A DNA stretch of 64,000 nt from Nonlabens tegetincola (GTDB lineage: Bacteria > Bacteroidota > Bacteroidia > Flavobacteriales > Flavobacteriaceae): assembly GCF_002954355.1 (NCBI RefSeq), contig NZ_MQVV01000010.1, positions 186,001 to 250,000 on the forward strand. The letters are read 5' to 3'. Of this stretch, positions 1 to 19,481 are shown in pieces. The notes below the pieces were generated by a model. That model had not been told where the DNA came from. It did not search any database and worked only from the letters and a program-made list of their open reading frames with translations. The translations under genes were made by a program, and so were the position numbers. Each line of letters starts with the position of its first letter. Positions within the stretch are counted from its first letter, which is position 1.

Positions 1-67
1 TGTAGTCATCGATAATAGAGCTGAGATTTTGAGCATACATGCTAATTTGCTGCACAATTTTACCGTT

Positions 68-484
68 ATGAAAGGTCGTTCCCTTAAAATTTTACTTTTA
101 GAAGATGATACTATTGAAGTGATGAAGGTCAATCGTGTTATTAACTCTCAAGAAATAAAACATCAACTCATAGAAGCCAGTAATGGTGAAGAAGCTTTAG
201 ATATTCTAAATAAAAAAGATAGTTTACCAGATATTATTTTATTAGACCTAAATATGCCAAAAATTAATGGTATTGAGTTTTTAGAAAAGTTAAAGAACGA
301 TGACAGATTGCGCTACATTCCTGTAATTGTTCTTACAACATCGGGTAATCATCGTGACCTATTGGAATGTTATAAAATAGGTGTGGCAGGATATGTTCTT
401 AAACCTTTAAAATATGAAGATTACGTTTTTAAAATGGAAAAACTCTTATCTTACTGGAGTATAAATGAACTAATCACCTTATAA
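68..484 (+). CDS. Rcp1-like single-domain response regulator
   Basis: Stand-alone CheY/Rcp1-type receiver domain that should accept phosphate from a histidine kinase. From the ATG at 68 the protein is about 138 residues. It shows the acidic pocket (LLLEDD), the phospho-acceptor Asp60 in LLDLNMP, the conserved Thr in VLTTSG and the Lys in YVLKPLK. No output domain follows, as is usual for Rcp1 proteins that work with phytochrome-like kinases. The frame stays open to the left edge of the window, so an upstream extension cannot be excluded, but the ATG at 68 gives the usual family N-terminus. It is separated from the H-NOX gene by 2 bp and is the first visible gene of a seven-gene operon, so it is probably one output or sink of the two kinases downstream. 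Confidence 0.88.
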   Translation: MKGRSLKILLLEDDTIEVMKVNRVINSQEIKHQLIEASNGEEALDILNKKDSLPDIILLDLNMPKINGIEFLEKLKNDDRLRYIPVIVLTTSGNHRDLLECYKIGVAGYVLKPLKYEDYVFKMEKLLSYWSINELITL

Positions 485-486
485 GA

Positions 487-1026
487 ATGAAAGGAATCAT
501 ATTCACAGAATTTTTAGAACTAGTAGAAGAAAAATTCGGACTCTCGATGGTTGATACCATTATCAATGAATCTGAATTGGAATCTCAAGGTATATATACC
601 TCGGTTGGGACCTATGAGTTTTCAGAAATGTTACAACTCATTACCCATTTAAGTAAAAACACTAATATTTCTGTAGATGATTTGCTACTTGTTTATGCAG
701 AACATTTGTTTGCTGCCTTAATCAATATGCATCCCAATATCGTAGAGCACTATAAAGACCCCATGGATCTCGTAGCCTCTATCGAAAATCACATTCATGT
801 TGAAGTAAAAAAAATATATCCCGAAGCTCAACTACCTACTTTTGAAATACAAGAGAAAAATTCTGATTCAATGAAGATAATTTACAAATCAGATAAGGCT
901 CTCTATATGCTTTGTAAAGGATTGATGACAGAAACATTCAAGCTGTTTAAAACTCCTGTAAATATTGAGTTCTATAAACTCAATGAATTAGGAACTGAAG
1001 TAAGATTTGATATAAGCTATGCTTAA
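487..1026 (+). CDS. H-NOX (heme NO-binding) domain protein
   Basis: Soluble 179-residue H-NOX sensor, the normal length for stand-alone bacterial H-NOX. The family start MKGIIFTEFLELVEEKFG is intact. The proximal heme ligand is predicted to be His104 (IHVEVKKIYPEA, aligned with the V-H-x-x-L segment of known H-NOX proteins). The heme-propionate motif YxSxR appears at 133-137 as YKSDK, so its Arg is replaced by Lys. Known bacterial H-NOX proteins bind NO and control a co-encoded histidine kinase or cyclase. Here the PAS histidine kinase starts on the very next base after the stop codon, which makes it the likely partner. Family assignment is firm; NO as ligand follows from the family; effects of the Lys substitution are inference. 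Confidence 0.93.
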   Translation: MKGIIFTEFLELVEEKFGLSMVDTIINESELESQGIYTSVGTYEFSEMLQLITHLSKNTNISVDDLLLVYAEHLFAALINMHPNIVEHYKDPMDLVASIENHIHVEVKKIYPEAQLPTFEIQEKNSDSMKIIYKSDKALYMLCKGLMTETFKLFKTPVNIEFYKLNELGTEVRFDISYA

Positions 1027-2619
1027 ATGTCACAAAACGAAATAGACATATTAAAAAGGGCTTTATCTAGAGAAAAAATGGCCCGTAAACAAGCTGAAAA
1101 AATTCTAGAAGAAAAGTCTGCAGATTTATATAAGTTAACTCAAGAACTTAAGAGTAGTAACCAACAGCTTGAAAAGCTTATTTATGAAAAAAACTCGCAG
1201 TTACAAGGCGTTTTTGAAAACATAGTAGATGCTTATGTTATTATGGACCTACAAGGTAAGGTCCTTAAAATGAACGATTCTGCGATAGAGTTATTGGAAC
1301 AGAATAATGAAGAAAAAGAATTTAGTTTATTAGAGTTAGTAAAAGACAATGATCTTGACCATGTTGCTAATGGCTTTAACAAATTAATCACCAAAGGTTC
1401 TATTACTAATTTTCAAATTCACGTCCACACTAAATCAGGAAAAACTAGGTTAGTCCATATCAATGCTAGTATTATCAAAAACGAAGAAGGTAAACCTGTT
1501 GCAGCACAAGGTATAGTGCGCGATATTACGTTAGATGCGGCCTATCAAAAGGCTGTTGAGGCTGAAAGAATAAAATATAGGTCTATCATTGATAATATGA
1601 ATATCGGTCTAGTTGAAGTAAACTCAAACGACGAAATTCAACTAGTAAATAGGAGATTCATTGAAATGACTGGCTATCAAGAAGAAGAGCTTATCGGAAG
1701 AAATGGAAAAGACTTTCTTTTAATTGATGCAGAAAAGAAAATTTTTAATCCCGATGAAACAGAACTTATTGATGACGGATCTTATACTTATGAACTAAAA
1801 ATTAAAAACAAGAATCAAGAAACTAAATATTGGTTATCCAGTGGTATTAAAAACGTTGATGTAAAAGGAAATCAATTAGGATCAATAAGAATTCATCTTG
1901 ATATTACAGATTTTAAGAACCTTCAATTACAAAAGGAAGATCTAGTTAAAAGTCTAGAAAAAAGTAATAATGAGTTAAAAGAATATGCTCACATAGTTTC
2001 TCATGACTTAAAATCACCATTGCGTAGTATTAACGCATTGGTATCTTGGTTAAGAGAAGACAATAAAGGTATTTTAAATGATTCCAGCATTCAAAATATT
2101 GAGTTGATTGAGTCTACTCTGGAAAAAATGGAATCATTAATTAGTGGAATTCTCGAGTATAGCGTTTTAGACAAAAACGTAGAAGCTTTTAAAAAAGTGA
2201 ATCTGGAAAGCTTAATAAGCGAGGTAATCGAAATGATTTACGTTCCAGATCATATTCAAATCAAGATTAATAATAAATTCCCTATTATTAATGGTGATAA
2301 AATTAAACTACAGCAATTATTCCAAAATTTAATTGCTAATGCCATTAAATACAATGATAAAGATCTTGGTACTATTACCCTTAGCTGTAAAGATCAAGGT
2401 AGTTTTTACGAGTTTGCGGTTAAGGATAATGGAATAGGAATTGAAGAGCAGTATCATCAAAAAATCTTCAAAATTTTTCATGCTCTTCATCACTCTAAAG
2501 ACTCGTCAGGGATTGGTCTTTCGATTGTAAAAAAAATAGTCAATTTACATGGTGGAGAAATATGGCTAGATAGTATTCCTAATCAAGGAACCACTTTTTA
2601 TTTTACCTTAAAGAAATAA
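1027..2619 (+). CDS. PAS-PAS sensor histidine kinase
   Basis: 530-residue soluble histidine kinase with no membrane segments. An N-terminal coiled coil (about 5-60) is followed by two PAS domains (about 60-170 and 185-300), a HisKA domain with phospho-His326 in HIVSHDLKSPLRS, and an HATPase_c domain with N box (NLIANAIKYND), G1 box (DNGIGI) and G2 box (SSGIGLSI). It abuts the H-NOX gene with no intergenic base and precedes the FIST gene by 2 bp. It is therefore the best candidate for the kinase regulated by the H-NOX protein, the FIST protein, or both. Likely phospho-acceptors are the operon's Rcp1-like receiver, Hpt and LytTR proteins. Being cytoplasmic fits sensing through soluble partner proteins. 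Confidence 0.93.
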   Translation: MSQNEIDILKRALSREKMARKQAEKILEEKSADLYKLTQELKSSNQQLEKLIYEKNSQLQGVFENIVDAYVIMDLQGKVLKMNDSAIELLEQNNEEKEFSLLELVKDNDLDHVANGFNKLITKGSITNFQIHVHTKSGKTRLVHINASIIKNEEGKPVAAQGIVRDITLDAAYQKAVEAERIKYRSIIDNMNIGLVEVNSNDEIQLVNRRFIEMTGYQEEELIGRNGKDFLLIDAEKKIFNPDETELIDDGSYTYELKIKNKNQETKYWLSSGIKNVDVKGNQLGSIRIHLDITDFKNLQLQKEDLVKSLEKSNNELKEYAHIVSHDLKSPLRSINALVSWLREDNKGILNDSSIQNIELIESTLEKMESLISGILEYSVLDKNVEAFKKVNLESLISEVIEMIYVPDHIQIKINNKFPIINGDKIKLQQLFQNLIANAIKYNDKDLGTITLSCKDQGSFYEFAVKDNGIGIEEQYHQKIFKIFHALHHSKDSSGIGLSIVKKIVNLHGGEIWLDSIPNQGTTFYFTLKK

Positions 2620-2621
2620 CT

Positions 2622-3716
2622 ATGTTAATCACGTCTAACACTAGCAAAGAAATTGCTCTAGATATTAAAGGTCACGTAGGTGCTCACGGTGCTTTAATTG
2701 CAGTTGCAGAACATACAGAATTGGATATTCCAGCATTAGTTAATGATCTCAATGAGATTGGAGTCACTTTTATGGGTGGGATTTTTCCAAAAGTCATTCA
2801 TAACAATCAGGTTATTGAAAAAGGTATTGTAATCAACACCTTACAAAATTTAGAAAAGATTTGTTTGATAAAAGAATTAAGTTCAACCAATTACACTATT
2901 CCAAAATTTGAATTTCAAGATGGTTCCTACAGTATAATCACCTACGTTGACGGTTTGACTTCAAATATTTCTCATTACATGAGTAAATTGTATGAAAATT
3001 ATGGAATGCAAACGAATTATTTTGGCGGTGGCGCAGGCAGTTTGTCACTTCAACAAAAACCATGTGTATTTACTAATGAAGGATTTTTTGAGGACGCAGC
3101 GGTCTACAGTATTGTTAAAATGTCATCCCATATTGGAGTAAAACATGGATGGAGTAAAGTTGACGGCCCTTATATCGTTACCAAAGCAGATGGTGATGTC
3201 ATTCAAGAGATAAACTGGCAAAACCCGTTTGAAATCTATAAAACTGTTGTAGAAAAGCACTCTAACAAAAAATTCAGTGATGACAACTTTTTTGATATTG
3301 CAAAGGGCTACCCTTTTGGCATTGTTAAAAACGATGGTGAGTGCATTGTAAGAGATCCTTTAATGACTAATGAGAAAGGAGAGATAATTTGTATCGCCGA
3401 ATTAGAGGACAACGCACTGGTTGATATTTTGAACGGAGACAACAACTCACTAATAAAAGCAGCTGAACAAGCTGCTCAAGAAAGTCTGTTACACGCTAGC
3501 AAACCGAGAAAGGCAATAATAATTGACTGTATTTCTAGGGTACTGTTTCTAGAAACAGATTTTGATAAAGAACTTCGCTCAATAACAGGAACACTAAAAG
3601 AAAAATATCCACATATTTCAATAAGTGGGGCACTCACGTTGGGTGAAATATCGTCATACGGTGAAGGATTTCTTGAATTCTATAATAAAACAGTTGTAGT
3701 AGGATTATTTGAATAA
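2622..3716 (+). CDS. FIST N/C domain sensor, NosP-like
   Basis: 364-residue soluble protein with an N-terminal FIST domain (about 20-215, including FGGGAGS and HGWSKVDG) and a FIST_C domain (about 220-355, ending in SISGALTLGEISSYG). FIST proteins are small-molecule sensors, and one characterised subgroup, NosP, binds heme and NO and controls a co-encoded kinase. Here the gene lies between two histidine kinases and next to an H-NOX gene, which favours a NosP-like role. The heme-ligand residue cannot be proven by reading. Its stop codon overlaps the next ATG (TAATG at 3714-3718), so it is probably translationally coupled to the second kinase. Confidence 0.88.
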   Translation: MLITSNTSKEIALDIKGHVGAHGALIAVAEHTELDIPALVNDLNEIGVTFMGGIFPKVIHNNQVIEKGIVINTLQNLEKICLIKELSSTNYTIPKFEFQDGSYSIITYVDGLTSNISHYMSKLYENYGMQTNYFGGGAGSLSLQQKPCVFTNEGFFEDAAVYSIVKMSSHIGVKHGWSKVDGPYIVTKADGDVIQEINWQNPFEIYKTVVEKHSNKKFSDDNFFDIAKGYPFGIVKNDGECIVRDPLMTNEKGEIICIAELEDNALVDILNGDNNSLIKAAEQAAQESLLHASKPRKAIIIDCISRVLFLETDFDKELRSITGTLKEKYPHISISGALTLGEISSYGEGFLEFYNKTVVVGLFE

Positions 3717-4863
3717 TGCAAATACAAAATCACATACTTGAGGTTTTACAGTTATATGAATACGCAATGGCTATTGGGAAATCTTTGGATTTTAAAGATA
3801 ATTGTGAGTCATTTATAAAATTGCTGCTCAAGCGCCAAAATTTGAATGCAGCTTGGGTACTTAAAGAAAAAGAAAATTATTTTGAAACTGTTTATTCGTT
3901 ACCTAAAGGAACAAGTTTAAGAATCAAAAGATCAGAAACTCCATTATCCATAATTGATAATGAATACATACTGCTCGATGTTGAAAAACATGAGATTTTA
4001 AATCAACTATCTCCGATTTCTTTTAAAGAAGGTCATGTTGCTGTGTATAATTTAAAAACTATTGGGTTTTTATTTCTGTACACCAAAAAAATAATTTAAA
4101 TCAAAAGGAATTAGTTCAATTAAAACCGGTAATTGAAAAGTTTACAACTAGCTTGCGTGCGAGTACAGCATTTGAAGAACAACAAAATTTATTAAATAAT
4201 TTAGAAGCCAGAAATCAAGAGTTAAGTGATTATGCTCATATGGTTTCCCATGACTTAAAATCCCCTTTACGCAGTATTGACACATTATCTTCCTGGCTTC
4301 AAGAAGATTATAAAAACTCACTAGATGCTACTGGGCAACAACATCTTGATACAGTAAGGGAAAATGTTCTCAAAATGGATAACCTTATTGATGGTATTCT
4401 ACAATATTCTAGTATCGATAAACACAATTCCGATTTTTATGATGTCCATCCTAACAAGATAATTTCTGAAATCATAAATTCCATAGTTGTTCCTGAAAAT
4501 ATAAAACTTGTAGTTAATGAATTACCAGTTATTAAAGGTGATACTTACAGAGTACGACAACTATTCCAAAACCTGATTACCAATGCTATAACCTATAATG
4601 ACAAAGAACAAGGTTATATTGAAATAGGTTACAACAATAGTGAAAAAGGTATGTTTTACATAAAAGATAACGGTATAGGAATCGATAAAAAATACCATCA
4701 AAAAATATTCAAAACATTTGAAAAGCTCGAGAATAAAAAAGGTTCTTCGGGAATAGGCCTTTCAATAGTAAATAAAATTATTGAGTATTATAACGGACAA
4801 ATCTGGATAGAATCTGAGCCTGGAATAGGAACCACATTCTTTTTTACATTACCTAAAACATGA
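3716..4863 (+). pseudogene. GAF-like histidine kinase, frameshifted at A7 run
   Basis: Second histidine kinase of the operon. The first frame (3716-4099) encodes a GAF-like N-terminus and stops just after TKKII. One extra A in the A7 run at 4085-4091 would continue it as TKKNNLNQKELVQLKP into the HisKA/HATPase part, read in the other frame up to 4863. That part has the phospho-His codon at 4249-4251 (MVSHDLKSPLRS), an N box (NLITNAITYND) and G boxes. Its DHp and catalytic domains closely resemble those of the upstream PAS kinase. The second piece has no convincing start codon of its own. It could be a true mutation, transcriptional slippage on the A-run, or an under-called homopolymer. The end overlaps the Hpt gene by 4 bp (ATGA). 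Confidence 0.82.
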
Positions 4864-5183
4864 CAGAACAACCCAACCGCTCCTATATAGATGCACTTTG
4901 TCGAGGCGATAAAGTATTTGAAGAAAAATTAATCAAGGTCATCAAATTAGAATTTCCCAATGAGGTAAAGGTCTATCATGAAGCCTTTAATGAAAAAAAA
5001 CAAACCAAAACTGCAGAGGCTGTTCACAAACTCAAACATAAAATAAGTATCTTAGGGCTAGAAAACGGTTATCAAACAGCCGTTAAATATGAGGATGAAA
5101 TAAGAGAAGGTAATTACGACTTGCATAAAGAGTTTGAAGCTATTCTTAACAGCATGTCTACCTACTTAAAAACACTAGAATAG
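4860..5183 (+). CDS. Hpt domain phosphotransfer protein
   Basis: 107-residue all-helical protein whose core, AEAVHKLKHKISILGL, matches the Hpt signature HxLKG/H, making His56 the probable phosphorylation site. Stand-alone Hpt proteins carry phosphate between receiver domains. The ATG overlaps the stop of the preceding kinase (ATGA at 4860-4863), and the LytTR regulator starts 8 bp downstream, so the protein probably shuttles phosphate between the Rcp1-like receiver and the LytTR regulator, or acts as a sink. The function is inferred from motif and context; sequence similarity to characterised Hpt proteins looks modest. Confidence 0.82.
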   Translation: MTEQPNRSYIDALCRGDKVFEEKLIKVIKLEFPNEVKVYHEAFNEKKQTKTAEAVHKLKHKISILGLENGYQTAVKYEDEIREGNYDLHKEFEAILNSMSTYLKTLE

Positions 5184-5191
5184 CCAGCAAA

Positions 5192-5902
5192 ATGAAATGT
5201 ATTATCATAGATGATGAAGCTACGGCAAGATTAATCATTGAAAATTACTGTAGTGATATAAAAGGTTTACAAATTATCGAGCAGTTTTCAAATGCTATCG
5301 ACGCCATGAAATACCTTAATCAACACACTGTTGATTTAATCTTTCTAGATATTCACATGCCTAATTTTAATGGTATGGATTTTATTCAAACCATTAAAAA
5401 TCCACCTAATGTAATACTCACCACGTCAGATCCTAATTTTGCTATTGAAGCTTTTGAATATGAGTGTATTGTAGGCTATCTAATTAAACCCATTGACCTT
5501 AATAAGTTTAATAAAGCTGTTCAAAAAGCCGTTACACAGTTTAAGTCTAAAAAAGTTGAAAATCAAAAAGCCGATGTAAGCCTTAACGAAGATGATATTC
5601 TATATGTAAACATTGACAGAAGACTCATTAAAATTGATATGCCTTCTATTTATTTAGTTGAAGCCAAAGGCGATTACATAATGATTAAAACTGAAACAAA
5701 AAACTATATCGTACACAGTACATTAAAGAAAATTGAGGAGAAATTACCTGATCATACCTTTCTTAAGGTACACCGTTCTTACATCATCAACGTTCAAAAG
5801 ATCATTGATATTGAAGACAATTGTGTGTTGATTAAAAAGGACATCGTTCCAGTAAGCAGGTCCAATCGCCCTATCTTAATGAAAAGATTAAATTTATTGT
5901 AG
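5192..5902 (+). CDS. LytTR family response regulator
   Basis: 236-residue regulator with an N-terminal receiver (phospho-acceptor Asp53 in LIFLDIHMP, conserved Thr in ILTTSD, Lys in YLIKPID) and a C-terminal LytTR DNA-binding domain (about 135-236, with FLKVHRSYIINV). It is the only DNA-binding protein of the operon and hence the likely transcriptional output of the H-NOX/FIST signalling module. Bacteroidota LytTR regulators are usually paired with LytS/YehU-type membrane kinases; pairing with soluble HisKA kinases and an Hpt protein is less usual. A perfect palindromic repeat follows 15 bp after the stop codon. Confidence 0.93.
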   Translation: MKCIIIDDEATARLIIENYCSDIKGLQIIEQFSNAIDAMKYLNQHTVDLIFLDIHMPNFNGMDFIQTIKNPPNVILTTSDPNFAIEAFEYECIVGYLIKPIDLNKFNKAVQKAVTQFKSKKVENQKADVSLNEDDILYVNIDRRLIKIDMPSIYLVEAKGDYIMIKTETKNYIVHSTLKKIEEKLPDHTFLKVHRSYIINVQKIIDIEDNCVLIKKDIVPVSRSNRPILMKRLNLL

Positions 5903-5934: not shown

Positions 5935-6038
5935 GTTAACCACCTATAAAAGAATCCAGTAATCTAGTTGATCAAACCATTCAACTACACTTAACGCCTG
6001 TCTAGCGAAAATACACCTAACAAGGTTGTTTATACTTC

Positions 6039-6067: not shown

Positions 6068-8503
6068 ATGAAGAAAAAACTACTCCTTTTGTTATTCGTA
6101 TCTCAAGTAATATGGGCTCAAGGTTATCAATATCTAGGAGCCTATGATTCCATGGGTACACCTTTATATTTAGAAAACCCAGGTGATGTGGTAGGTAGCG
6201 ACACTATGGATATGGTGGGTTATTCTTTGCCAGAAGGTTATCCTGTTCCCATCTACAATCCTCACTATATAACAGCTGGATACGATACCGATCTTATTAT
6301 TGATAGTCTAGCAGACGTTTGGGTAACCTTCGTAAGTGAAGGTGCAGGTTATAAGAATGTTTTAGGTTTTTACACCTATGATGTTAATAATCCTCCAGTT
6401 ACAGCTCCTACTCCATCAGACATAACGATTATTTTTCCTAACGTATCTGCACTATACAGTGGTGGCGGATTATTAGCTGGTGATAAAGTTAAAATAGGAA
6501 CTTTTCCTGCAGGAACGGGAATTGGATGGGTTCTTTTAGCAAATGCATGGAATAGTTCTACATCTTCTATAGGTAATCCACTTTGGGCTGTACACTCAAA
6601 CCCAGACTTTAACCCAGAAGCCCTACCCGAACTACAGCATCATAATGTCTTGCTACAAGATGCCGAAAACGAAAGAATCATTTTAGGATTTGAAGATGTA
6701 AGAAGAGATTACGGCTCGTGCGATAATGATTTTAATGATGCTGTATTTTATATTTCCGCAAATCCATACACTGCATTGAGAACAACAAATTATGCCGATG
6801 TAAGCAAGTTGGCAACTGTAACATCGGGAAATACAGGTGGTTTAGAAAGTGATGGTAAGCTAGCTAGCCTAGTTGCAGTTAGAAATTTTAAACGATCTAA
6901 AGAAAACCATCAATCAAATAAGAAAAATCAAGAGAGTTTTACTTCATATATTTCAAAAAACGGCGGAACTCAAACGACTCTAGATACTTACATTCCTAAT
7001 ACAGGAATGTATGGAACTGAAGTGGCACAAGTATCTACACCGCAAGACCTTATAGGTATTACCAATGCAAATGAAGTTTTATCAGTAGATTATTATGAAC
7101 AAAGTAATCGCGTAGCGGCTGTTCTAGCAACTAGTACAACAGGGTCTATATACGATCATTCCAAAGTTATTTGCGACCGATTAAATAATTCCTCACTGGA
7201 CGACGTACGTGTAGTAACCGTAAATGGGTATCCCATGATAAGTTCAAAAATAACTCGAGCCAATGGTGAGGTAGAGTACGCATTGGGTTTTTCCATTAAA
7301 CACGACGGTGCCCAAAATGAACTCTATAGTTTGTGGGAAATAGGCCAGTATCCTACAGGGGATTATTACAATTTTCAAGTATGGGGAAGTTCTTTTTCAC
7401 AGGTTTTTGCAATTACTAATGGTATCCTAAGCAACTTTAACCAATCACAATCTGTAGTTAATACTACCATTACAGCTACAGTACCAGAGGTGTTCGTAAA
7501 TTCTGGTTACTATAAAAATGGAGCGCTACACCTTACTATTACAAATAAAACTGGTGTCCTTAATATGAATTTTTCTGGGAATTTGTCTGTAACAGAACAA
7601 TCTGGAAGACAAAACATCACGCAGTCCATTAATCTTTCAGGCGCTTATCAAGAAGATATAATAATTCCAACTGGTGGATTATTTGATATTGGATTTTCTA
7701 TCAACACAGGATCTTCACAGCAAGACACTCTATATCTAGCTGATGGACCATGGGGACTGGACTATCTAGACACCTATGCAACTGTATCACAGTTTGATAT
7801 TAATGCGGGTAATACATCGGTTTTACCAAACGTTTATCATGTGGAACGTAATCCTATTGTAACTGGTAATGTAAAGGGTAATATCAACCTTTTTAGACAC
7901 CTATTACCTGGTGATCAAAGTCTGGATATAACAAATTATGACACCATTCAATTTGATTTAAGCAATGACCGAGATGTAGAGGTTGTTCTGGTTCCAAATG
8001 CAGATATCGCCTGGACTGACAGGTATACCTTTACCATTCCGGCTAATCAGGGAAATACTACTACTACTCATACGATAAGAATAAATGAATTTGAAAATAG
8101 ATCAGGAGTTCCATTCTCTTATTCAGACATTAAAACTATTGTTTTTTCAGTTATAAGTGATTATTCCACAACTATTCCATTTTCAATAAGTATTAATGAT
8201 TTAAAAATCGGTCAATTTTCAACGTTGTCGTTGAACCAAAATTACGATGCTATTGCACAGGTTATGGTGTATCCTAATCCGGCTAGTACAACTGCCTACT
8301 TTAAGTTGCCAGAATCTACAAGTTCAATTGAACTACACATATATGATATGAATGGAAGATTGATAGATCGTAAAACTGAATCTTTGTTAGAAACTGAGAA
8401 TAGCTTTAAATATGATGTGACTTCGCTTAAAAAAGGCTATTATGTTTATAAAATTCTTACAGCAAACAACGAATCTTTTATGGGGAAACTCGTGAAACAA
8501 TAG
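6068..8503 (+). CDS. Secreted DUF4114 protein with T9SS sorting domain
   Basis: 811-residue secreted protein. It has a signal peptide (MKKKLLLLLFVSQVIWAQG), a DUF4114 module around residues 190-240 with the acidic putative Ca-binding motif GFEDVRRDYGSCDNDFND, a long beta-rich middle, a carbohydrate-binding-like segment around residues 560-720, and a T9SS type A sorting domain at the C-terminus (VMVYPNPAST to GKLVKQ). It should cross the outer membrane through T9SS and end on the cell surface or outside. A surface adhesin or carbohydrate-binding role is plausible but not proven. The start is the ATG at 6068, which gives a normal signal peptide and lies just downstream of a -7 box. It is separate from the two-component operon and ends at a bidirectional terminator. 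Confidence 0.85.
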   Translation: MKKKLLLLLFVSQVIWAQGYQYLGAYDSMGTPLYLENPGDVVGSDTMDMVGYSLPEGYPVPIYNPHYITAGYDTDLIIDSLADVWVTFVSEGAGYKNVLGFYTYDVNNPPVTAPTPSDITIIFPNVSALYSGGGLLAGDKVKIGTFPAGTGIGWVLLANAWNSSTSSIGNPLWAVHSNPDFNPEALPELQHHNVLLQDAENERIILGFEDVRRDYGSCDNDFNDAVFYISANPYTALRTTNYADVSKLATVTSGNTGGLESDGKLASLVAVRNFKRSKENHQSNKKNQESFTSYISKNGGTQTTLDTYIPNTGMYGTEVAQVSTPQDLIGITNANEVLSVDYYEQSNRVAAVLATSTTGSIYDHSKVICDRLNNSSLDDVRVVTVNGYPMISSKITRANGEVEYALGFSIKHDGAQNELYSLWEIGQYPTGDYYNFQVWGSSFSQVFAITNGILSNFNQSQSVVNTTITATVPEVFVNSGYYKNGALHLTITNKTGVLNMNFSGNLSVTEQSGRQNITQSINLSGAYQEDIIIPTGGLFDIGFSINTGSSQQDTLYLADGPWGLDYLDTYATVSQFDINAGNTSVLPNVYHVERNPIVTGNVKGNINLFRHLLPGDQSLDITNYDTIQFDLSNDRDVEVVLVPNADIAWTDRYTFTIPANQGNTTTTHTIRINEFENRSGVPFSYSDIKTIVFSVISDYSTTIPFSISINDLKIGQFSTLSLNQNYDAIAQVMVYPNPASTTAYFKLPESTSSIELHIYDMNGRLIDRKTESLLETENSFKYDVTSLKKGYYVYKILTANNESFMGKLVKQ

Positions 8504-8560: not shown

Positions 8561-8592
8561 AAAAAAGGCTTGGAGTAATCTGAGCCTTTTTT
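8561..8592. terminator. Bidirectional intrinsic terminator
   Basis: 10-bp stem AAAAAAGGCT / AGCCTTTTTT around a 12-nt loop, giving T-runs on both strands. It lies between two convergent genes, and the minus-strand gene ends on its last base. Confidence 0.85.
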
Positions 8593-10676
8593 TAGTCCAT
8601 TTTTTTTGCTTCTGAAAAATTAAATAGAGGTCTTTTTGTAATGTACCATTTAAGGTTCAAACCAAATTCAGTAAACGTAAAACCAGCAATAGTTGTTGAC
8701 GCAATATTACTTTGCAATCCGTATAAATCAATAAAAGCTCGATCTGACAATTTGTAACCCAACTTGGCCTGTACACGATAGGTAGATTGACTAGGATTGT
8801 CTTCTATGACTTGTAAACCTGTAGCAAGATTAATATCGTAATACCATTGATTAATCTTAATCGAATTAAGATCTCTATTAAGGTTTAAGAAAATTTCTAC
8901 AGCATTAAAACTGCTAGGGCTAAAATATGTGGTAGGCACTTGATTTTTAAAGCTTATATATTGGTAGTTTACACCTGCTTTAAGAACAGGTTTTTTGAAA
9001 ATGTTATAATATAATGAGGTAAAAAGCAAATTACGAGTATTATTATCGTTCTGCGAGGTATAATAATATTGAGTAAACCATCCTAAGTTGAAATTGGTAC
9101 TTAGATTATAGTTTACATAATAGTTGTTTTGAATCAATTGTCTATCTAGTAAAGCTGCATTGAAACTTTCCAGAGTGCGTTGATAACCTAATGATAAGGA
9201 TTGTAATTTGAATGCGTTAATATTGAGTGAGAGGTTTGTGACAACCTGACTTTGGTTAGTATTCTCACTATTAGTGTTAATGACACCCAACAACCCTTTT
9301 AAATCAATTTTTGGAATTATCGTGTATTTAGATCCTATTTGGAATGAGTGTGCGGTTGCTGTAGTAGATAACAAATCATTATTTGTATTTCTATAAGTAT
9401 AATCTGCTAGTAATTCCCATTTTACACTCATAGGAACTTTTAGTGTGAGTTGTGAACTATACGCCTCATTTTCACCATTATCAAAGCTATAGCTAGGTTT
9501 GATATTTAAGTATGGAGTAAAACTTTGATCTATATTTTTTAGAAACTTAGTAACGTCTTTTTGTTGATTAAAAATGTCTAATGTTTGAATTCCTTTAAGG
9601 TAGGCTTGTTGGTAAAGGCCTAAAGCTTTTAATGAGTTTGCTTTACCTAGATTACCGTCAAAGGATAACGAATCATTATTTAAAATTTTATCGTAGTCTT
9701 TGATACTTGATTTAAAATTGCTTGTATAAACATTGTTAGTAGCTCTTAATGCTAGTATCCAGTTTTCATTACCATAATCGTTTAAAAGCATTTCAATTTT
9801 ATCACTTGCTTTTTTATACTTGGAGTTCCATATAAGAGCTTGCACATACCGTTCATGTGTTCTTGCAACTGTGTTGGGTTCAATATTTAATGTAACCAGG
9901 CTTAATGATTTTGAAGCTGTTTTTAAAGCTTTTTTATCCTGATTCTTTAGATGTTGTACTAGGGCAATACCGTTTAATGAAATAATACTGTCAGTTCTTG
10001 TTTTATTTATTCTCTTGTAAGTAATAAATGCACTATCTATTTTTTCTGAGATCAAGTAGGTATTAGCTAGCACCTGGAGTAATTCAGCATCCTCCTTTAT
10101 TAATTTATTTACTTCATTCAAGGTATTTATAGCTGCTTGAGTTTTTTGGTTTTTTACTAGAAAATCTGAATATCCTAAATGTATGTACTTTTTAGAGGTA
10201 AGAGCATTGGCATTATTGGGTTCTAATTCAAGTGCTTTATTGATATAAATAATAGCTTGATCATATAATTTTAGATTTGAAAGAGTATTTGAATATCCTA
10301 ATACAGCTGGAAAACTATTCGGTTGGGATCCTAGTAATTTCTCGTAGTATTCTTTCGCTTGTTGAAACTCTTTGTTCCAAAGAAGAGACTCGGCATAATT
10401 AAGTTTAATTTCAAAATCATTGGGATATTCATCCAGTAAATCAACGAACATATTCTTTGCTAACCTAGGGTTATCATTGAGGCCGGTAGCTCGAGCGTAA
10501 CAAAGCTTTGCTGTTTTGTTGTTAGGAAAATCCTGTAAAACCTGATTAAAAAAAACTTGGGCTTCTCTAAATTGACCTTTCTCTAGCATTTTAAACCCTT
10601 CTGACATTTCCTGTGAATAGAGTCTATTACAACAAAACAATGTTATTATAAAGGAAATTAAAACATACGTTTTCAT
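8592..10676 (-). CDS. TPR outer-membrane beta-barrel protein, YaiO-like
   Basis: 694-residue exported protein. A signal peptide (MKTYVLISFIITLFCC...YSQ) is followed by TPR-type repeats (about 20-370) and a C-terminal beta-barrel (about 390-690) of alternating aromatic strands such as FTFTEFGLNLKWYITKR, as in the YaiO outer-membrane family. A periplasmic TPR scaffold plus porin-like barrel is the layout of exopolysaccharide exporters such as PelB and BcsC/AlgK-AlgE. It is divergent from the STAS-flippase-GT4 genes, so it may be the outer-membrane partner of that locus. The ATG at 10676 was chosen because it gives a clean signal peptide; a TATCTTTA box (10703-10710, minus strand) lies just upstream. 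The assignment to polysaccharide export is inference. Confidence 0.75.
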   Translation of the reverse strand: MKTYVLISFIITLFCCNRLYSQEMSEGFKMLEKGQFREAQVFFNQVLQDFPNNKTAKLCYARATGLNDNPRLAKNMFVDLLDEYPNDFEIKLNYAESLLWNKEFQQAKEYYEKLLGSQPNSFPAVLGYSNTLSNLKLYDQAIIYINKALELEPNNANALTSKKYIHLGYSDFLVKNQKTQAAINTLNEVNKLIKEDAELLQVLANTYLISEKIDSAFITYKRINKTRTDSIISLNGIALVQHLKNQDKKALKTASKSLSLVTLNIEPNTVARTHERYVQALIWNSKYKKASDKIEMLLNDYGNENWILALRATNNVYTSNFKSSIKDYDKILNNDSLSFDGNLGKANSLKALGLYQQAYLKGIQTLDIFNQQKDVTKFLKNIDQSFTPYLNIKPSYSFDNGENEAYSSQLTLKVPMSVKWELLADYTYRNTNNDLLSTTATAHSFQIGSKYTIIPKIDLKGLLGVINTNSENTNQSQVVTNLSLNINAFKLQSLSLGYQRTLESFNAALLDRQLIQNNYYVNYNLSTNFNLGWFTQYYYTSQNDNNTRNLLFTSLYYNIFKKPVLKAGVNYQYISFKNQVPTTYFSPSSFNAVEIFLNLNRDLNSIKINQWYYDINLATGLQVIEDNPSQSTYRVQAKLGYKLSDRAFIDLYGLQSNIASTTIAGFTFTEFGLNLKWYITKRPLFNFSEAKKMD

Positions 10677-10823
10677 AAAATCATAGGTAAATCGGGTTAG
10701 ACTAAAGATAATTACCACTGGTCTACAGTAAAATGCGATTAAACGAAAATAACCAATCTAAGCCTTTAAGCTAGAGCATCTTTGTAGAGAATAAAAAATA
10801 AAAATCATTTAAATATCAATATT

Positions 10824-11102
10824 ATGTCTTTACAAATTAACAAATTAAACGGGATTTATGAATTAACTGGAGTGCTTGATTTAACCACTGCAAAACCATT
10901 ATTAAATCATATAAAATTATTGCAAGGGTTTGAGAAATCTATTGATATCAATATAGATAACCTCTCACTGATTGACAGAACAGGTGTTGCTGCACTACTT
11001 ACTATACTTTCTTTGTCTCTAAGAACTGATTGTAATATCACTATTTCTGGTAGGGGTTACAAAGATATTTATAACGAGTATAGAGATAATCAAGCTGCTT
11101 AA
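10824..11102 (+). CDS. Stand-alone STAS domain protein
   Basis: 92-residue protein with a STAS fold pattern (beta strand YELTGVLDL, then NLSLIDRTGVAALLTIL). STAS proteins such as SpoIIAA antagonise anti-sigma factors or switch partner proteins when the Ser/Thr in the D-x-S/T-G motif is phosphorylated; here that motif is DRTG, so Thr is the candidate site. No matching kinase or phosphatase is next to it. It is followed 23 bp later by the flippase gene and is probably co-transcribed, suggesting control of polysaccharide assembly. A CATCTTTG sequence upstream is a weak -7 box. Confidence 0.68.
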   Translation: MSLQINKLNGIYELTGVLDLTTAKPLLNHIKLLQGFEKSIDINIDNLSLIDRTGVAALLTILSLSLRTDCNITISGRGYKDIYNEYRDNQAA

Positions 11103-11125: not shown

Positions 11126-12397
11126 ATGTTAGCCAGTACCTTCCTTAAATCAAAAAAAATTACCTCAGAACAATTATTTATGTTAAGTGTTCTTTTGGTG
11201 AACGGTGGTAATTATTTTTATAATTTAATTCTGGGAAGGCTATTGGGGCCATCGCAATTTGCAGATGCAGCAGTACTCGTTACTTTTTTATTAGTGCTTT
11301 CTTTTTTGGCCATGACATTTCAGCTGGTTACCACAAAATTTAGCGCCTTATTAGAATATTTTGATTTATCCTCATTCATCAATTCAATATTTAAACTGTC
11401 TGTGATTACCGGTGTTATCATCGGTGCCATAATTATTGCCTTATCAAAGTGGCTTCAACAATCATTACAAACTCAAAATTCTATGATGTTTGTGATTTTT
11501 GGAACAGCGGTTCCTGTTTACTTTATATTAAGTGTAAATAGGGGTTTTCTTCAAGGAAATAATCAATTCAAACCTTTATCCATTACCTATCAATTGGAAA
11601 TGGTAACTAGGTTAGTTTTAACTGTCAGTTTTCTTTTATTCATACCAAAATTAGAACCCATAATAAGTGTTTCCATAGGTATAGTGATTTCATTAATCGC
11701 AGGTTTCTTCCCCTTCAAATTGACGCCTTTCATTGAAAGAATGTCAATTAAATCCAGTCTGATTTTAAGTCGACCTGTGAAACACTTTTTTATTGTTACT
11801 CTATTCTATGAACTTACTCAAATCATTATAAATAATAGCGACATTTTATTAGTGAAGCATTTTTTCAACAGTTATGATGCTGGATTATATGCTTCCCTTG
11901 CTTTAATAGGTCGAGTAGTTTACTTCATGGCATGGATGTTTGTAATGCTCTTACTTCCTAAGGTAATCGAACTGAAAAAAAACAATAAAAACACAACTCA
12001 GATTTTATCTAAATATGTAAGTTATATCACCTTATTGTGTATGGTAATTGTAATTGGAACTATCCTTTCACCAGAAACCATAGTAAGCTTACTGTTTGGT
12101 AATGAGTATTTAGAAATAGCACCATTGTTGTGGAAATACGCTGTGGCAACCTCATTGTTTGCAATCGCCAATATATTCTCGTATTACTTCTTATCCTTAG
12201 GAAACTATATTCCTGTAATTATTTCTGGGATTATGGGAATGATGCAGGTGGCAATGATTTACTTGTTTCATGATTCTCTTCACACAGTTGTTCTAGTTCA
12301 AATAATAGCTATGGTTGTGCTTCTTACTGGACAAGTATTATACTTCTACCAATCAAAAACAGATCAAAACCATTCATCTACACCAACTGGCATTTAG
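11126..12397 (+). CDS. Polysaccharide flippase, MATE/Wzx-like
   Basis: 423-residue integral membrane protein with about 12 hydrophobic segments. Its N-terminus (LLVNGGNYFYNLILGRLLGP) is typical of polysaccharide/oligosaccharide flippases of the MOP superfamily (Wzx, PelG). It should move lipid-linked or nascent glycan across the inner membrane. It stands between the STAS gene and a GT4 gene on the same strand, the usual flippase/glycosyltransferase pairing. The substrate cannot be read from the sequence. The length is near the 400-500 residues usual for the family. Confidence 0.83.
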   Translation: MLASTFLKSKKITSEQLFMLSVLLVNGGNYFYNLILGRLLGPSQFADAAVLVTFLLVLSFLAMTFQLVTTKFSALLEYFDLSSFINSIFKLSVITGVIIGAIIIALSKWLQQSLQTQNSMMFVIFGTAVPVYFILSVNRGFLQGNNQFKPLSITYQLEMVTRLVLTVSFLLFIPKLEPIISVSIGIVISLIAGFFPFKLTPFIERMSIKSSLILSRPVKHFFIVTLFYELTQIIINNSDILLVKHFFNSYDAGLYASLALIGRVVYFMAWMFVMLLLPKVIELKKNNKNTTQILSKYVSYITLLCMVIVIGTILSPETIVSLLFGNEYLEIAPLLWKYAVATSLFAIANIFSYYFLSLGNYIPVIISGIMGMMQVAMIYLFHDSLHTVVLVQIIAMVVLLTGQVLYFYQSKTDQNHSSTPTGI

Positions 12398-12484: not shown

Positions 12485-13696
12485 ATGAAAATCGCAGTCG
12501 TAACATCGTTTCCTCCTAGTAAAATCACACTAAATGAGTATGCTTTCCATTTGGTAAAAAGCTTAAGTGATCACGAAAAAATTTCAGAGATTGTATTATT
12601 AACTGATCATACGGTTGAAGAAAAAGATTTAAGTTTTAAAAATGATGATTGCATCATAACTGTCAAAGAATGTTGGTCATTCAATAGCTACTGGAACTTA
12701 AAATCGGTTACTAAAGCAATTAACGAGACTAATCCAGATCAGGTTTTATTCAACCTACAATTCATGAAATTCGGAGACAAAAAAGTAGCTGCTGCATTAG
12801 GTTTAATGTTACCCTTAATATGTAAACTAAAAAAAATACCTACAGTTGTCTTGCTGCATAACATTCTTGAGGAAGTAGACTTATCTAGTGCCGGTTTTAC
12901 AAATAACATTATCCTTACGAAAGCTTATAACTTAATAGGCTCTTTACTTACTAGACTCATATTACAAGCAGATGTTGTAGCCGTAACCATGCAGAAATAT
13001 GTAACCATTTTACAAGAGAAATACAACGCAAGTAATGTAAGGCTTATACCTCATGGAACTTTTGAAACTCCTCAACAAGAACCTAGCTACGATGCAAATA
13101 CTGGCGCGTTGAAGGTAATGACCTTTGGGAAATTTGGAACTTATAAAAAGGTAGAGAATATGATCGAGGCTGTAGAGTTAGTACGTAAAAGAACTCACTT
13201 AGATATTGAGATAATAGTTGCAGGAACTGATAACCCAAACGTTCCTGGATATTTAGAAGGTGTTAAAAAGAAATACAGTAGCGTTGAAAAGGTAACGTTT
13301 ACTGGATATGTAGAAGAGGATGAGGTGCCTGTAATCTTTCGCGAAAGCGATATCGTTATATTCCCATATACATCTACTACTGGTAGTTCTGGAGTACTGC
13401 ATCAAGCAGGAAGTTATGGTAAGGCTGTAGTAATGCCTGATCTAGGAGACCTAGCTCTACTTACTAAAGAAGAAGGTTATAGAGGTGAGTTTTTTGAGCC
13501 TACTAGTATTACTAGTTTGGCAGATGCTATTGAAGTATTACTTACAAACGATGCTCACCGTCGCGCTATAGCTCGTTCAAATTTTGAGGCTGCAACTGCT
13601 TATCCTATGAGTAAAATTGCACAATTATATGTTGATGTTTTTGATGAATTACAGACTGAATCTAAGTCTGTTAACCATTTACAGGTTGTTAATTAG
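12485..13696 (+). CDS. Glycosyltransferase family 4
   Basis: 403-residue soluble GT-B enzyme. The N-terminus (MKIAVVTSFPPSKITLNEYAFHLVKSL) is the acceptor domain. The C-terminal half contains MTFGKFGTYKKVENMIEA, an FTGYVEEDEVP segment, and the nucleotide-sugar region ESDIVIFPYTSTTGSSGVLHQA. Retaining transfer of a sugar from an NDP donor is expected. It is preceded by a CATATTTG sequence (12453-12460), one base off the -7 consensus. The gene end overlaps the convergent hydrolase gene by 8 bp. The codons for FRES contain the core of the dispersed palindrome (13336-13347). Confidence 0.88.
   Translation: MKIAVVTSFPPSKITLNEYAFHLVKSLSDHEKISEIVLLTDHTVEEKDLSFKNDDCIITVKECWSFNSYWNLKSVTKAINETNPDQVLFNLQFMKFGDKKVAAALGLMLPLICKLKKIPTVVLLHNILEEVDLSSAGFTNNIILTKAYNLIGSLLTRLILQADVVAVTMQKYVTILQEKYNASNVRLIPHGTFETPQQEPSYDANTGALKVMTFGKFGTYKKVENMIEAVELVRKRTHLDIEIIVAGTDNPNVPGYLEGVKKKYSSVEKVTFTGYVEEDEVPVIFRESDIVIFPYTSTTGSSGVLHQAGSYGKAVVMPDLGDLALLTKEEGYRGEFFEPTSITSLADAIEVLLTNDAHRRAIARSNFEAATAYPMSKIAQLYVDVFDELQTESKSVNHLQVVN
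13336..13347. repeat. Palindrome core inside GT4 gene
   Basis: CTTTCGCGAAAG, the 12-bp core of the dispersed palindrome, read as F-R-E-S in the GT4 gene. The flanks do not extend the symmetry, so it may be coincidence or a decayed copy. Confidence 0.4.
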
Positions 13697-15197
13697 ATAA
13701 ATGTTTAAAGGTTGGTTTCTTATTGCCATGGACGTCGATAAATCCATAGAATTTTTGAGGATTTCTACGCCATGGCAATATTCCTGTTACCTTATCAGGT
13801 ACTTGGTTAAAATCATATAAAGTCCAGGACATAGCAGGAATTTTCTTCTCTTTCAGGATTGAGTTGGCTTTTTTATGATACTCTGCTTGTTCTTTTTCAC
13901 TAGAACTCAAACCCAGTATTCCCGTATAAGAACTCCATCCATATTCGGTAATAACAATTTCTTTTTCAGAGAGTTGAGAACGAAGTTTTTCCCATTTATT
14001 TGATAATTCATCTAGGTCTTCATAATAATGAAAAGATACAAAGTCTACATCTTCACTTAATCCTGTCGCAGCTTGTGCATTTGACCAACCTATAGTGACT
14101 GGATGATCCTGGTCTAATAATTTTAAACGATAAATCATTTGTTCAAGCCACGAATCTACCATGGAAGGACTTCGGTTTTCGTAATCGAGATCTGGCTCGT
14201 TTTTTAAATCATAACCTAATAAAGCTGGGTGATTCATTATTTGTGGAATCAATTGATTTAAGTGCTGTGTGGTCATTGTCCAGTCTTCGACATCATAATT
14301 ACCATAAAAGTCAAATAGAGTTACCAATACGTCTAGATCATTGGAATGAGCGCTATCTAATAGCTCGAGCAGTTTATTAACTTTCTTACTTTGCACGTAT
14401 TCTTTTCCAAAATCCTCATACCCAATAAAAATTCTAATCGTATTGATGCCTTGATTTTTAAGCAGATTAAAATCTGAATCAAAAGTGGCCTTGGTAATAC
14501 TATCATTAAAGGTATCCCAAGGAAATTTTTGAGGGTAATAATTAATTCCTCTTACTTTACTGTGCAGTGGTAAGGTTTCAAAATTTGAGGTTATCGAACG
14601 CACGCCTGTTGAAACTAAATGCCTAATGTGCCAGTGACCATCCTGTAGTAGTAACACAACCTTATAGTCATTTGATGTGTTTTGCTCATCGATTATCTGA
14701 TTATCTTGATACGTTTTTTGATATTGAAGAACTTCGGTATCTGATATAACCACAATTTGACCATCCTCGCTCATAAACTCGATTTTAGGATGATGCTCTA
14801 GCGTGGTCATCTCAACGGTTGTTCCGTTTTTAATATTATAGTCGATAATAGATTTTAGTTTGCCCAATGAGCGCTTTGTGTAAAAATCTGAAACACCGTT
14901 AATGTCGTTATTTTTAAGAGCATTTGCTTTTACACGCCATGCGTTTAAATAATCTTTCTCTATGGTGGCAAGCATGGTTTTATTTACAGATCTACCTTTT
15001 ACTGCTGTTGTATCCCAGGTTATTATAGGTCGATAAGTGCGTTGTTCTAACTGTTCAGTATGTAGCATTTTACTGCGATCTGCCCCAGTATTTAAATAAC
15101 TGTATACGCTTCCTATCGCTAGGATTACACAGGCTATAAGTCCTAGGTAAAGTAAAACCAGTCCAGATCGTAATATATTTACGCTAAAGTTATTCAA
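13689..15197 (-). CDS. Membrane-anchored GH5-like glycoside hydrolase with NTF2-like domain
   Basis: 502 residues: one N-terminal membrane segment (about 10-32), an NTF2-like module (about 65-195), then a (beta/alpha)8 hydrolase domain (about 210-500) of GH5/clan A type. Likely catalytic acid/base is Glu334 in YDLKNEPD and nucleophile Glu418 in IVITEYGW. The anchor places the enzyme in the periplasm, where it could trim or release the polysaccharide of this locus, comparable in role (not sequence) to PelA, PslG or BcsZ. The start overlaps the end of the upstream Ig-like gene by 8 bp, so the three minus-strand genes form an operon. The 3' end overlaps the convergent GT4 gene by 8 bp. Substrate unknown. 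Confidence 0.78.
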   Translation of the reverse strand: MNNFSVNILRSGLVLLYLGLIACVILAIGSVYSYLNTGADRSKMLHTEQLEQRTYRPIITWDTTAVKGRSVNKTMLATIEKDYLNAWRVKANALKNNDINGVSDFYTKRSLGKLKSIIDYNIKNGTTVEMTTLEHHPKIEFMSEDGQIVVISDTEVLQYQKTYQDNQIIDEQNTSNDYKVVLLLQDGHWHIRHLVSTGVRSITSNFETLPLHSKVRGINYYPQKFPWDTFNDSITKATFDSDFNLLKNQGINTIRIFIGYEDFGKEYVQSKKVNKLLELLDSAHSNDLDVLVTLFDFYGNYDVEDWTMTTQHLNQLIPQIMNHPALLGYDLKNEPDLDYENRSPSMVDSWLEQMIYRLKLLDQDHPVTIGWSNAQAATGLSEDVDFVSFHYYEDLDELSNKWEKLRSQLSEKEIVITEYGWSSYTGILGLSSSEKEQAEYHKKANSILKEKKIPAMSWTLYDFNQVPDKVTGILPWRRNPQKFYGFIDVHGNKKPTFKHLSN

Positions 15198-19300: not shown

Positions 19301-19481
19301 TCCACGGTTCAAACCAATTACTAGCGTAGTGTTCTGCAAAAAACAAATGAATAAGAGCATCATAGGTAGTTTCCAGAGTATAAAATATCGTAGCACCATG
19401 AAACAATAGCCCTACGAATAAAGCTACTATCAATATTTTATTGGTCTTTTTAGATGATTTCAATGGTTGCATTTTATACAT
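16383..19481 (-). CDS. GT-C-like polytopic membrane protein (PTPS-related family)
   Basis: 1032-residue protein. The N-terminal 560 residues hold about 10-12 membrane segments with an early periplasmic acidic motif (ETTYDALIHLFFAEHYA), as in GT-C enzymes that use polyprenyl-phosphate sugars and in the so-called 6-pyruvoyl-tetrahydropterin synthase-related membrane family. A last TM segment (about 625-645) is followed by a periplasmic part with an NTF2-like module (about 655-760) and FxLYD-like beta domains (about 800-1030). Together with the DPM1-like GT2 encoded divergently, it could use a lipid-phosphate sugar to modify the exported glycan. The start is the ATG at 19481 or 19472; a TATCTTTA box lies at 19484-19491 (minus strand), which favours the second. 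First gene of a three-gene operon. Confidence 0.68.
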   Translation of the reverse strand: MYKMQPLKSSKKTNKILIVALFVGLLFHGATIFYTLETTYDALIHLFFAEHYASNWFEPWNFKWYTGFTVMSYPPLVHQSIALLSSIGGLKFGMFTIAIVGVILFITGVYRFTLLLTSNRNCAGYAALLAVFSSSFVETLHIFGQLPSIVGISVLMHALPEIYLWLKNGKIKYLITSLSLIAVTVTSHHVTPIFGMVFFIFPLIGMVIMDHSRDRVSTYRQITFKVFLVSFFKLFKRIVVFGACSLVIIIGCILPYWINTKNNPITQVPIPHGSRDNFIEITSSGLVFFLIPWGILLLILPYIFYRYYSKRYLFFGLSITLLTILGTGGTTPIPRTILGENAFNILTLDRFTLWASIMSLPMLGEFAYRFINGDLKELIQSKLGAVYHRLSGGVLAGLIIFFSIFTITLGNFRPSQPPKIKMLPIVNFLDQDQHHEWRYLTLGFGDQMAWLSAQTNALTVDGNYHSARRLPELTTRPIERLENSKFKGVEGLGSLQQFLTAPEKYHLKYIFSNDKFYDPMLYFSGWQRLQQLENGIMVWEKLNVAPLPKILPFQDVAQWQKLLWGIMPILTVLIAFVLNFHLLLLRLLKYKEVRLPDYLKVPFTIKNIPWSLIVLLHIWSIILVIISIIGLYLLYIKNDAHHSPENVSIAYYDALDFKEFKKAHSYIDVKSKLSLDQYMLEVSVSDGLLSSYGKLDEIDTQIVSSTDSTAIVQVFTKWITPLKKLEKATIISTVKRDGNWYIQLQEKDPDLPPDQFISVNQTDFYNQGRRKATVEKTFHEDVLKQPELQLLNSKLVKNEGQYYLLGEVQNIDNVPADVVINGTIYDNSNKELASYNAQYDLKHKLLPKEISSFKIKFEGIAWQNTKDSIPSGFDPDHYTPINFESEPQVFNLQAAGNVAITDLYKALTINELHIKGDKLSGSLFNAGNQQVTVPQLLLSYYDQHSNLVWVEHHFITDAIRPQRKSNFEIKLTDLKELKTINSNMSNCYVNGLPNPNYHTSYDDKVEHELIPTSNSEIPYIKIELNSYIGNPN

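Follow-up and report, generated by a model that had tools for sequence, protein, structure and literature searches.

In the literature seen, control of biofilm by nitric oxide (NO) mostly depends on Vibrio quorum sensing or on enzymes of cyclic di-GMP (c-di-GMP). A search of the genome of the flavobacterium Nonlabens tegetincola for GGDEF proteins found none (the control search was positive in 8 of 14 cases), which raises the question of how such bacteria link NO to life on surfaces. The stretch of this genome analysed here (the window; 64,000 nucleotides, G000:C10:186001-250000, RefSeq contig NZ_MQVV01000010.1) begins just inside an operon encoding a single-domain receiver, an H-NOX sensor, two histidine kinases (HK1 and HK2), a FIST protein, an Hpt phosphotransfer protein and a receiver-LytTR response regulator. 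We regard it as rather probable that this operon encodes a multi-input, NO-responsive phosphorelay with interchangeable inputs, through which transcription of surface matrix genes would be controlled without c-di-GMP. Operons of this compact type occur in many marine flavobacteria, and their LytTR regulator probably controls a neighbouring matrix cluster; the locus thus offers a testable chain from H-NOX through LytTR to named promoters carrying an 18-bp site.

Composition and conservation of the operon

All seven operon genes lie head to tail on the + strand, from 68 to 5902 (Table 1), with gaps or overlaps of no more than 8 nt (2 nt, 0, 2 nt, a 1-nt overlap, HK2, a 4-nt overlap and 8 nt). 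A first-pass annotation of the window had described a compact seven-gene operon, and gene order, domains and spacing bear this out; the exception is the second kinase, which is not one open gene. The ATG at 68 is a likelier start for the receiver than the TTG at 29. The H-NOX protein passed the curated PF07700 cut-off, the LytTR regulator lay above both of its cut-offs (receiver 67.3 bits, cut-off 30.2; LytTR 67.9 bits, cut-off 22.6), and the FIST and FIST_C domains of the FIST protein reached 85.8 bits (cut-off 23.2) and 73.8 bits (cut-off 28.5), respectively. Pfam detected no receiver domain in either HK1 or HK2 of the window.

The window locus was compared with the best 80 of at least 584 confirmed stretches from an H-NOX alignment scan of named genomes; shares among these 81 loci are valid only for H-NOX proteins near the query. 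By title, the 80 named loci are from Flavobacteriaceae, plus one 'Flavobacteriales' and one 'Bacteroidetes' bacterium. The order receiver, H-NOX, HK1 was found at 81/81 loci and the LytTR gene at 80/81 (the exception, L151, is a short contig), and a FIST+HK2 cassette was present at 53/81. The residues needed for phosphotransfer were invariant in the locus alignment: the phospho-Asp and Lys of the single-domain receiver (81/81), the H-box His of HK1 (81/81) and HK2 (55/55), a His at the Hpt phospho-His position (79/79) and the phospho-Asp of the LytTR regulator (80/80). H102 and H104 of the H-NOX protein were likewise kept at 81/81 loci, the position of the proximal heme-binding His being our assumption. 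The heme motif of H-NOX proteins is YxSxR, and the window protein has YxSxK; decay, suspected from this Lys in a 14-row alignment, was rejected, as the K variant is common to 12/81 loci, with R in the other 69. Conservation of the proximal heme-binding His is described for H-NOX proteins (PMC8738867).

Counts over whole genomes gave a similar picture. In a family sample of 397 genomes, H-NOX was found in 146, FIST in 116 and both in 93, with the two starts no more than 3.3 kb apart in 75 of these 93. Low-scoring FIST places are absent from the listed matches behind these counts; four further pairs were confirmed at the loci themselves (G000, G162, G310 and G356), giving H-NOX/FIST neighbours in 79 of the 146 H-NOX genomes, one of which (G296, L063) is arranged differently; this pairing left out one H-NOX match below the cut-off, FIST genes in genomes without H-NOX, and distant FIST genes. 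Among the 15 H-NOX genomes of the same genus other than that of the window, FIST follows HK1 in 12 (its open frame is shortened in one, L029), and is absent in two, and in one a contig end cuts the locus short. Among 59 genomes, comprising that of the window and those of relatives, 25 have H-NOX; in a phylum sample of 247 genomes the number was 16, seven of them outside the family. A locus outside the family, L039, has H-NOX, kinase, receiver, Hpt and LytTR genes without FIST. The gene order is therefore conserved across the family and not due to chance, and an arrangement peculiar to this strain is ruled out. Two other arrangements were seen in passing: a second H-NOX gene in genome G010 (L052), with a receiver gene before it and a gene for an 824-aa kinase after it; and an H-NOX match with an internal stop codon beside a 140-aa FIST piece (L057, G093), in what looks like a decaying operon.

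What varies is the sensory equipment. The slot between HK1 and Hpt holds a FIST protein of one type (type A) at 48/81 loci and of another (type B, the window's) at 7/81. At L083 the two are stacked as FISTa-HK2-FISTb-HK2, and at L079 a FISTb-HK2 pair lies downstream of LytTR. Genome G027 (L206 1585-19111) has lost H-NOX, with the receiver, kinase, Hpt and LytTR genes retained along with the sites and the cluster. The kinases that accompany type B tend to group in the kinase tree (4 label changes against 10.3 in shuffles, with long-branch warnings), where the window HK2 lies inside a supported set of seven; FIST and HK2 therefore seem to move as a pair. The natural loci cover several sets of inputs (H-NOX without FIST, H-NOX plus FIST A, FIST B or both, and operons lacking H-NOX), which can be compared to ask what FIST proteins detect and how one Hpt serves several kinases. 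The FIST-less operons L066, L067, L071, L127 and L137 each carry two LytTR regulator genes, one immediately after the other.

The two ends of the window operon also appear to differ in ancestry. The best matches of the window H-NOX were in Winogradskyella and a Flavobacteriaceae bin (78-80% identity), against 57-59% for the best in its own genus, whereas its LytTR regulator shared 83% identity with that of its own genus and about 71% with those from elsewhere. The Hpt protein, too, had its nearest match in the genus, HK1 had its nearest in Winogradskyella tangerina, and that of the receiver was ambiguous. Trees using 57 and 55 of about 102 rows served to ask whether the operon as a whole had been inherited within the genus. 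For H-NOX they rejected a clade of genus plus window (p-AU 9e-16); for LytTR they did not (p-AU 0.055), and the window sat among six genus rows in a supported set (with a long-branch warning from the tree program). From these identities and trees, the sensor end has therefore probably been replaced and the output end retained. A tRNA-Met gene, a possible recombination point, lies upstream of the operon at L027 (7748-7822), between an epimerase-like gene and the operon.

These data are compatible with a broader proposal, for and against which we find the balance about even, namely that the operon is a plug-in platform of Flavobacteriaceae for NO-dependent, c-di-GMP-free matrix control. An invariable part (receiver, kinase, Hpt, LytTR regulator and a matrix cluster bearing sites for that regulator) would accept sensor/kinase cassettes (H-NOX/HK1, FIST-A/HK2 and FIST-B/HK2) that are inserted, stacked, lost or exchanged between species by recombination, and type B FIST, with its haloarchaeal relatives, would stand apart from NosP as a sensor class of its own.

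LytTR-type sites and the adjoining surface cluster

The motif CCATTCGTC(G/T)ACACTTAA precedes both the operon and genes of the adjoining cluster for a type IX secretion system (T9SS) protein and polysaccharide. Motif searches run separately on the operon promoters and on those of the DUF4114 gene downstream returned CCATTCGTCGACACTTAA in 77/81 of the former (score 1124, against 119 in shuffled sequence) and CCATTCGTCTACACTAAA in 53/55 of the latter (score 649, against 95). LytTR regulators bind direct-repeat DNA sites; a second copy of the motif occurred in the operon promoters at an offset of +21 in 24/78 and of -21 in 13/78, and in the DUF4114 promoters in 4/53. The core CCATTCGTC is identical at 8 of 9 bases to the AlgR core site CCGTTCGTC (PMC4064291).

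A matrix trained on 129 sites in the operon and DUF4114 promoters of other loci gave four matches above 20 bits in the window, all on the + strand, with the next best at 8.2 bits; a Markov control predicted 0.23 matches above 14 bits per window. Across the 80 named loci, sites above 17 bits numbered 104 within the 400 nt preceding the operon (74 loci), 101 downstream of it (66 loci), none in 426 kb of operon body and six in 650 kb farther upstream; the operon and DUF4114 promoter counts are not independent of the training of the matrix, and the STAS, GT4 and GT2 sites are. When two mismatches were allowed, the window's own genome contained eight matches against two for a reversed control pattern, five of the eight being in this 20-kb region; the three elsewhere (L199-L201) lie inside open frames and are probably due to chance.

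Sites, cluster and H-NOX also occur together between genomes. Within the genus, a site with at most one mismatch was present in 15/16 genomes with H-NOX and in 0/7 without, and a 1032-aa protein that serves as a marker of the cluster (59-72% identity in most full-length copies found) was present in 16/16 and 0/7, respectively. Over all 59 genomes, the corresponding numbers were 19/25 and 6/34 for the sites and 21/25 and 1/34 for the marker, the one genome being G027; Fisher tests on this co-occurrence treat related genomes as independent. A DUF4114 relative was found downstream at 55/81 loci. In eight other genomes viewed, relatives of most cluster genes lie beside or near the operon, with at least one site before a cluster gene in 7/8 stretches; the 12 stretches viewed were chosen from genomes with sites or cluster and are examples rather than a sample.

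Several observations weigh against control of the cluster through these sites. One of 30 simulated windows contained a chance match of 22.6 bits, and the reversed pattern gave 10 matches in 9/59 genomes (against 51 in 25 for the real one). Sites with one mismatch were missing in 6/25 H-NOX genomes and present in 6/34 without H-NOX, and the 1032-aa marker was missing in 4/25. DUF4114 was not found downstream at 26/81 loci in flanks of up to 10 kb. In G032 (L205) the cluster has no sites, and in G024 (L209) it lies apart from the operon and again has none. The lack of a one-mismatch site in 6/25 H-NOX genomes leaves some room for the shared motif to be the site of another regulator or a regional promoter element, with the relay controlling something else. 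We consider this highly improbable, in view of the 21-bp spacing of paired copies that many operon promoters show, the resemblance to the AlgR site, the absence of the motif from all seven same-genus genomes without H-NOX and its retention together with LytTR in G027. Our preferred reading remains that the LytTR regulator would bind CCATTCGTC(G/T)ACACTTAA before its own operon and before the cell-surface cluster.

The gene content of the cluster suggests an exported polysaccharide and a secreted protein as its products. A Pel- or PNAG-type cluster (PNAG, poly-N-acetylglucosamine), of which the gene content is reminiscent, was considered and rejected, as no family model reached its cut-off: no Pel family was among the matches, PgaA scored 41 bits (cut-off 367) and PgaC 67 bits (cut-off 422).

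Table 1. Genes and LytTR-type sites of the operon and the adjoining cluster, in window coordinates
Feature	Position	Strand	Remarks
Two LytTR-type copies, 21 bp apart	-41..-24, -20..-3 (just outside the window)		Before receiver gene
Single-domain receiver	68..484	+	PF00072 6.4e-23
H-NOX sensor	487..1026	+	PF07700 4.9e-37, 127.8 bits (cut-off 25.5)
HK1, PAS-PAS-HisKA-HATPase histidine kinase	1027..2619	+	Pfam
FIST protein, type B	2622..3716	+	PF08495 4.7e-24; PF10442 1.9e-20
HK2, N-terminal piece	3716..4099	+	Without Pfam domain
HK2, catalytic piece, other frame	4153..4863 (frame open from 4051)	+	HisKA 2.8e-11; HATPase_c 3e-26
Hpt phosphotransfer protein	4860..5183	+	PF01627 20.3 bits (cut-off 24.6)
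Receiver-LytTR response regulator	5192..5902	+	PF00072; PF04397 9.1e-19
LytTR-type site	5977..5994	+	24.2 bits; 94 nt before DUF4114 gene
Secreted DUF4114 protein with T9SS sorting tail	6071..8503	+	
TPR protein	8592..10676 (or GTG start 10718)	-	Presumed outer-membrane export; PgaA model 41 bits (cut-off 367)
LytTR-type site	10715..10732	+	20.9 bits; 109 nt before STAS gene
STAS-domain protein	10824..11102	+	PF01740 22.1 bits (cut-off 22.6)
Polysaccharide flippase	11126..12397	+	PF13440 1.8e-12
LytTR-type site	12370..12387	+	20.9 bits; 115 nt before GT4
GT4-type glycosyltransferase	12485..13696	+	PF13692 9e-19
Glycoside hydrolase-like protein	13689..15197	-	PF11790 4.1e-06
Ig-like (Big) domain protein	15190..16383	-	Domain below cut-off
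1032-aa protein, cluster marker	16383..19481	-	No Pfam or NCBIfam match
LytTR-type site	19538..19555	+	23.4 bits; 94 nt before GT2
GT2-type glycosyltransferase	19632..20465	+	PF00535 9.6e-24

The FIST proteins and the second kinase

The FIST protein had been called NosP-like in the first-pass annotation, a label that it does not bear: against the NosP model NF041558 (equivalog cut-off 450) it scored 29.3 bits, and the FIST proteins of six relatives scored 28.5-59.6 bits. By type, the scores were 48-60 bits for three type A proteins and 28-32 bits for four of type B, including the window's. The two types are distant from each other (mutual match only about 50 bits), and a C-terminal C.LHNQ motif, present in 47/48 type A proteins, is lacking in type B. 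Among relatives encoded on plasmids, those of type A reach at best 36-43% identity (Legionella and Azospirillum); type B has relatives in haloarchaea (36-39%) and in Salinibacter and Microvirga (29-31%). Genes for a GAF-domain, PAS or ATP-binding protein follow the type B relative in all three regions viewed (L154 3845-5050, a haloarchaeon; L155 3842-4960, Salinibacter; L156 3632-4792, Microvirga), where FIST adjoins signalling genes far outside the known NosP organisms.

Predicted structures were of unequal use. The type B model was discarded (mean pLDDT 50, pTM 0.49). That of a type A protein (L075, Winogradskyella marincola) had a mean pLDDT of 80 and a pTM of 0.82, and with it Foldseek ranked FBXO22, which we take to contain a FIST domain, first (TM 0.50), followed by chorismatase and Toblerone-fold hydrolases, a ranking that agrees with a FIST fold and is silent on heme. 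Sequence searches of solved structures gave one match for each FIST type, with E values of 0.65-0.97.

NO sensing by the FIST branch is accordingly an assumption of our model, and a serious competitor, to which we give somewhat less than an even chance, keeps the same platform and has FIST types A and B detecting other ligands, such as heme itself or a small metabolite; the operon would then integrate NO with one or two further signals. Both types fall far short of the NosP cut-off, type B is without the C.LHNQ motif of type A, and a heme response is reported for the FIST-FIST_C part of V. cholerae CdpA (PMC8846402). On the other side, FIST shares its operon with an NO sensor, and its pairing with a kinase whose N-terminus has no recognised domain resembles NosP-NosK (PMC12570481).

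The kinase gene that adjoins the window FIST gene is split: in this assembly HK2 consists of two pieces in different frames. When each was searched on its own, the N-terminal piece matched residues 1-126 of intact relatives at 44-48% identity and the catalytic piece residues 125-end at 56-60%. Because both meet at residue 125/126, there is a single frame change, inside the 4051-4099 overlap, which contains a run of seven A. Since HK2 is divided between two frames, the FIST branch may be silent in this strain. That it is dead, HK2 being a recent pseudogene and the relay being driven by H-NOX/HK1 only, is possible and in our estimate the less probable outcome: the reading frame is open only in two separate pieces, yet every catalytic motif is retained, there is just one frame change, and it falls at a seven-A run, where slippage or assembly error is common, in a draft assembly of 21 contigs. 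Some relatives have HK2 intact.

Phosphate path and comparison with known systems

In the mechanism we favour, H-NOX would bind NO and control HK1, its presumed partner, and FIST, where present, would control its own kinase HK2. Because the kinases are without a receiver domain, phosphate would pass from them to the stand-alone receiver, the likely first acceptor, and from there to Hpt and to the receiver of the LytTR regulator (His-Asp-His-Asp); this four-step relay is the simplest reading of the invariant Asp, His and Asp acceptors. NO and the FIST signal would thereby set matrix production. In Shewanella and Vibrio, H-NOX with NO bound is described as inhibiting the kinase associated with it (PMC6769237, PMC8846402), so that NO would be expected to lower the level of phosphorylated LytTR.

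The first-pass annotation had both NO sensor types feeding one relay. What stands of this is the architecture: two sensor/kinase pairs share one Hpt and one LytTR regulator, an arrangement that is conserved, and the acceptors are invariant. At one Aquimarina locus (L126), moreover, HK2 is fused to an Hpt-like domain (PF01627 1.3e-4; 22.6 bits, cut-off 24.6), and no separate Hpt gene was found at this locus. From these three lines the H-NOX and FIST branches plausibly converge. Less favourable to this scheme are the window Hpt protein, which misses the PF01627 cut-off (Table 1), the broken HK2 and the assumption of NO sensing by FIST.

The path might also be branched, with receiver and LytTR regulator phosphorylated separately and the receiver acting as a phosphate sink or elsewhere. 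Branched outputs are known for H-NOX kinases, and a Legionella pneumophila operon of H-NOX, kinase and CheY-like receiver has an unknown output (PMC11237717). We think branching unlikely, given that the loss of H-NOX in G027 has not separated receiver, Hpt and LytTR; the HK2-Hpt fusion at L126 also fits a relay, although it allows other orders.

One close parallel is in Vibrio, where LuxU receives phosphate from kinases governed by H-NOX or NosP (PMC6769237, PMC8738867). The HqsK/H-NOX and VpsS/NosP pairs acting on LuxU-LuxO likewise combine a soluble heme NO sensor with a cytosolic kinase of no known sensory domain, and a single Hpt serves several kinases and passes the signal to a DNA-binding regulator; the genes there are scattered, and the output is LuxO, the Qrr RNAs and quorum sensing (PMC6769237, PMC8738867). 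In the window, unlike in Vibrio, sensors, kinases, receiver, Hpt and LytTR regulator share one operon, and the likely target adjoins it. In Shewanella oneidensis, H-NOX and NosP reportedly form one c-di-GMP network; judged by the title of the paper alone, both sensor classes occur together there as here, with c-di-GMP as the output there.

The kinases under NosP control have an N-terminus in which no domain is known (PMC12570481), and the NosP-NosK-NosR and NosP-NahK-NarR systems, like the window, place the FIST gene beside a kinase with an N-terminus of about 130 aa without a recognised domain (PMC12570481, PMC8846402, PMC11237717). The FIST types described here differ in failing the NosP model, and the output is not a c-di-GMP enzyme. 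The hnox2-lpg2458-lpg2457 operon of L. pneumophila resembles the window in combining H-NOX, kinase and a CheY-like single-domain receiver, and the available part of its description mentions no FIST, Hpt or LytTR (PMC11237717). On the output side, AlgR of Pseudomonas aeruginosa is also a LytTR response regulator that acts, through the core site CCGTTCGTC, on polysaccharide genes (PMC4064291); inputs and polysaccharide cluster are different here, and the site often occurs as two copies 21 bp apart.

The first-pass annotation named no described system with both sensor classes and a LytTR output in one operon. A neighbourhood survey does mention FIST genes near group 1 H-NOX genes (PMC8738867), so the proximity itself is not new; a description of this operon or its regulon was not found in the literature searched, from which most subscription journals were absent. 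The locus thus joins known components in a modular and widespread layout of which we found no description, with a presumed output in the surface matrix.

One further feature of the window is the palindrome CGCTTTCGCGAAAGCG, which lies at 5917-5934, again at 15724-15741 and 22514-22531, and onward to 57063. With one mismatch allowed and counting both strands, there are 19 matches at 10 places and none is expected by chance; CGCTTTCGCGAAAGCG is a highly iterated palindrome.

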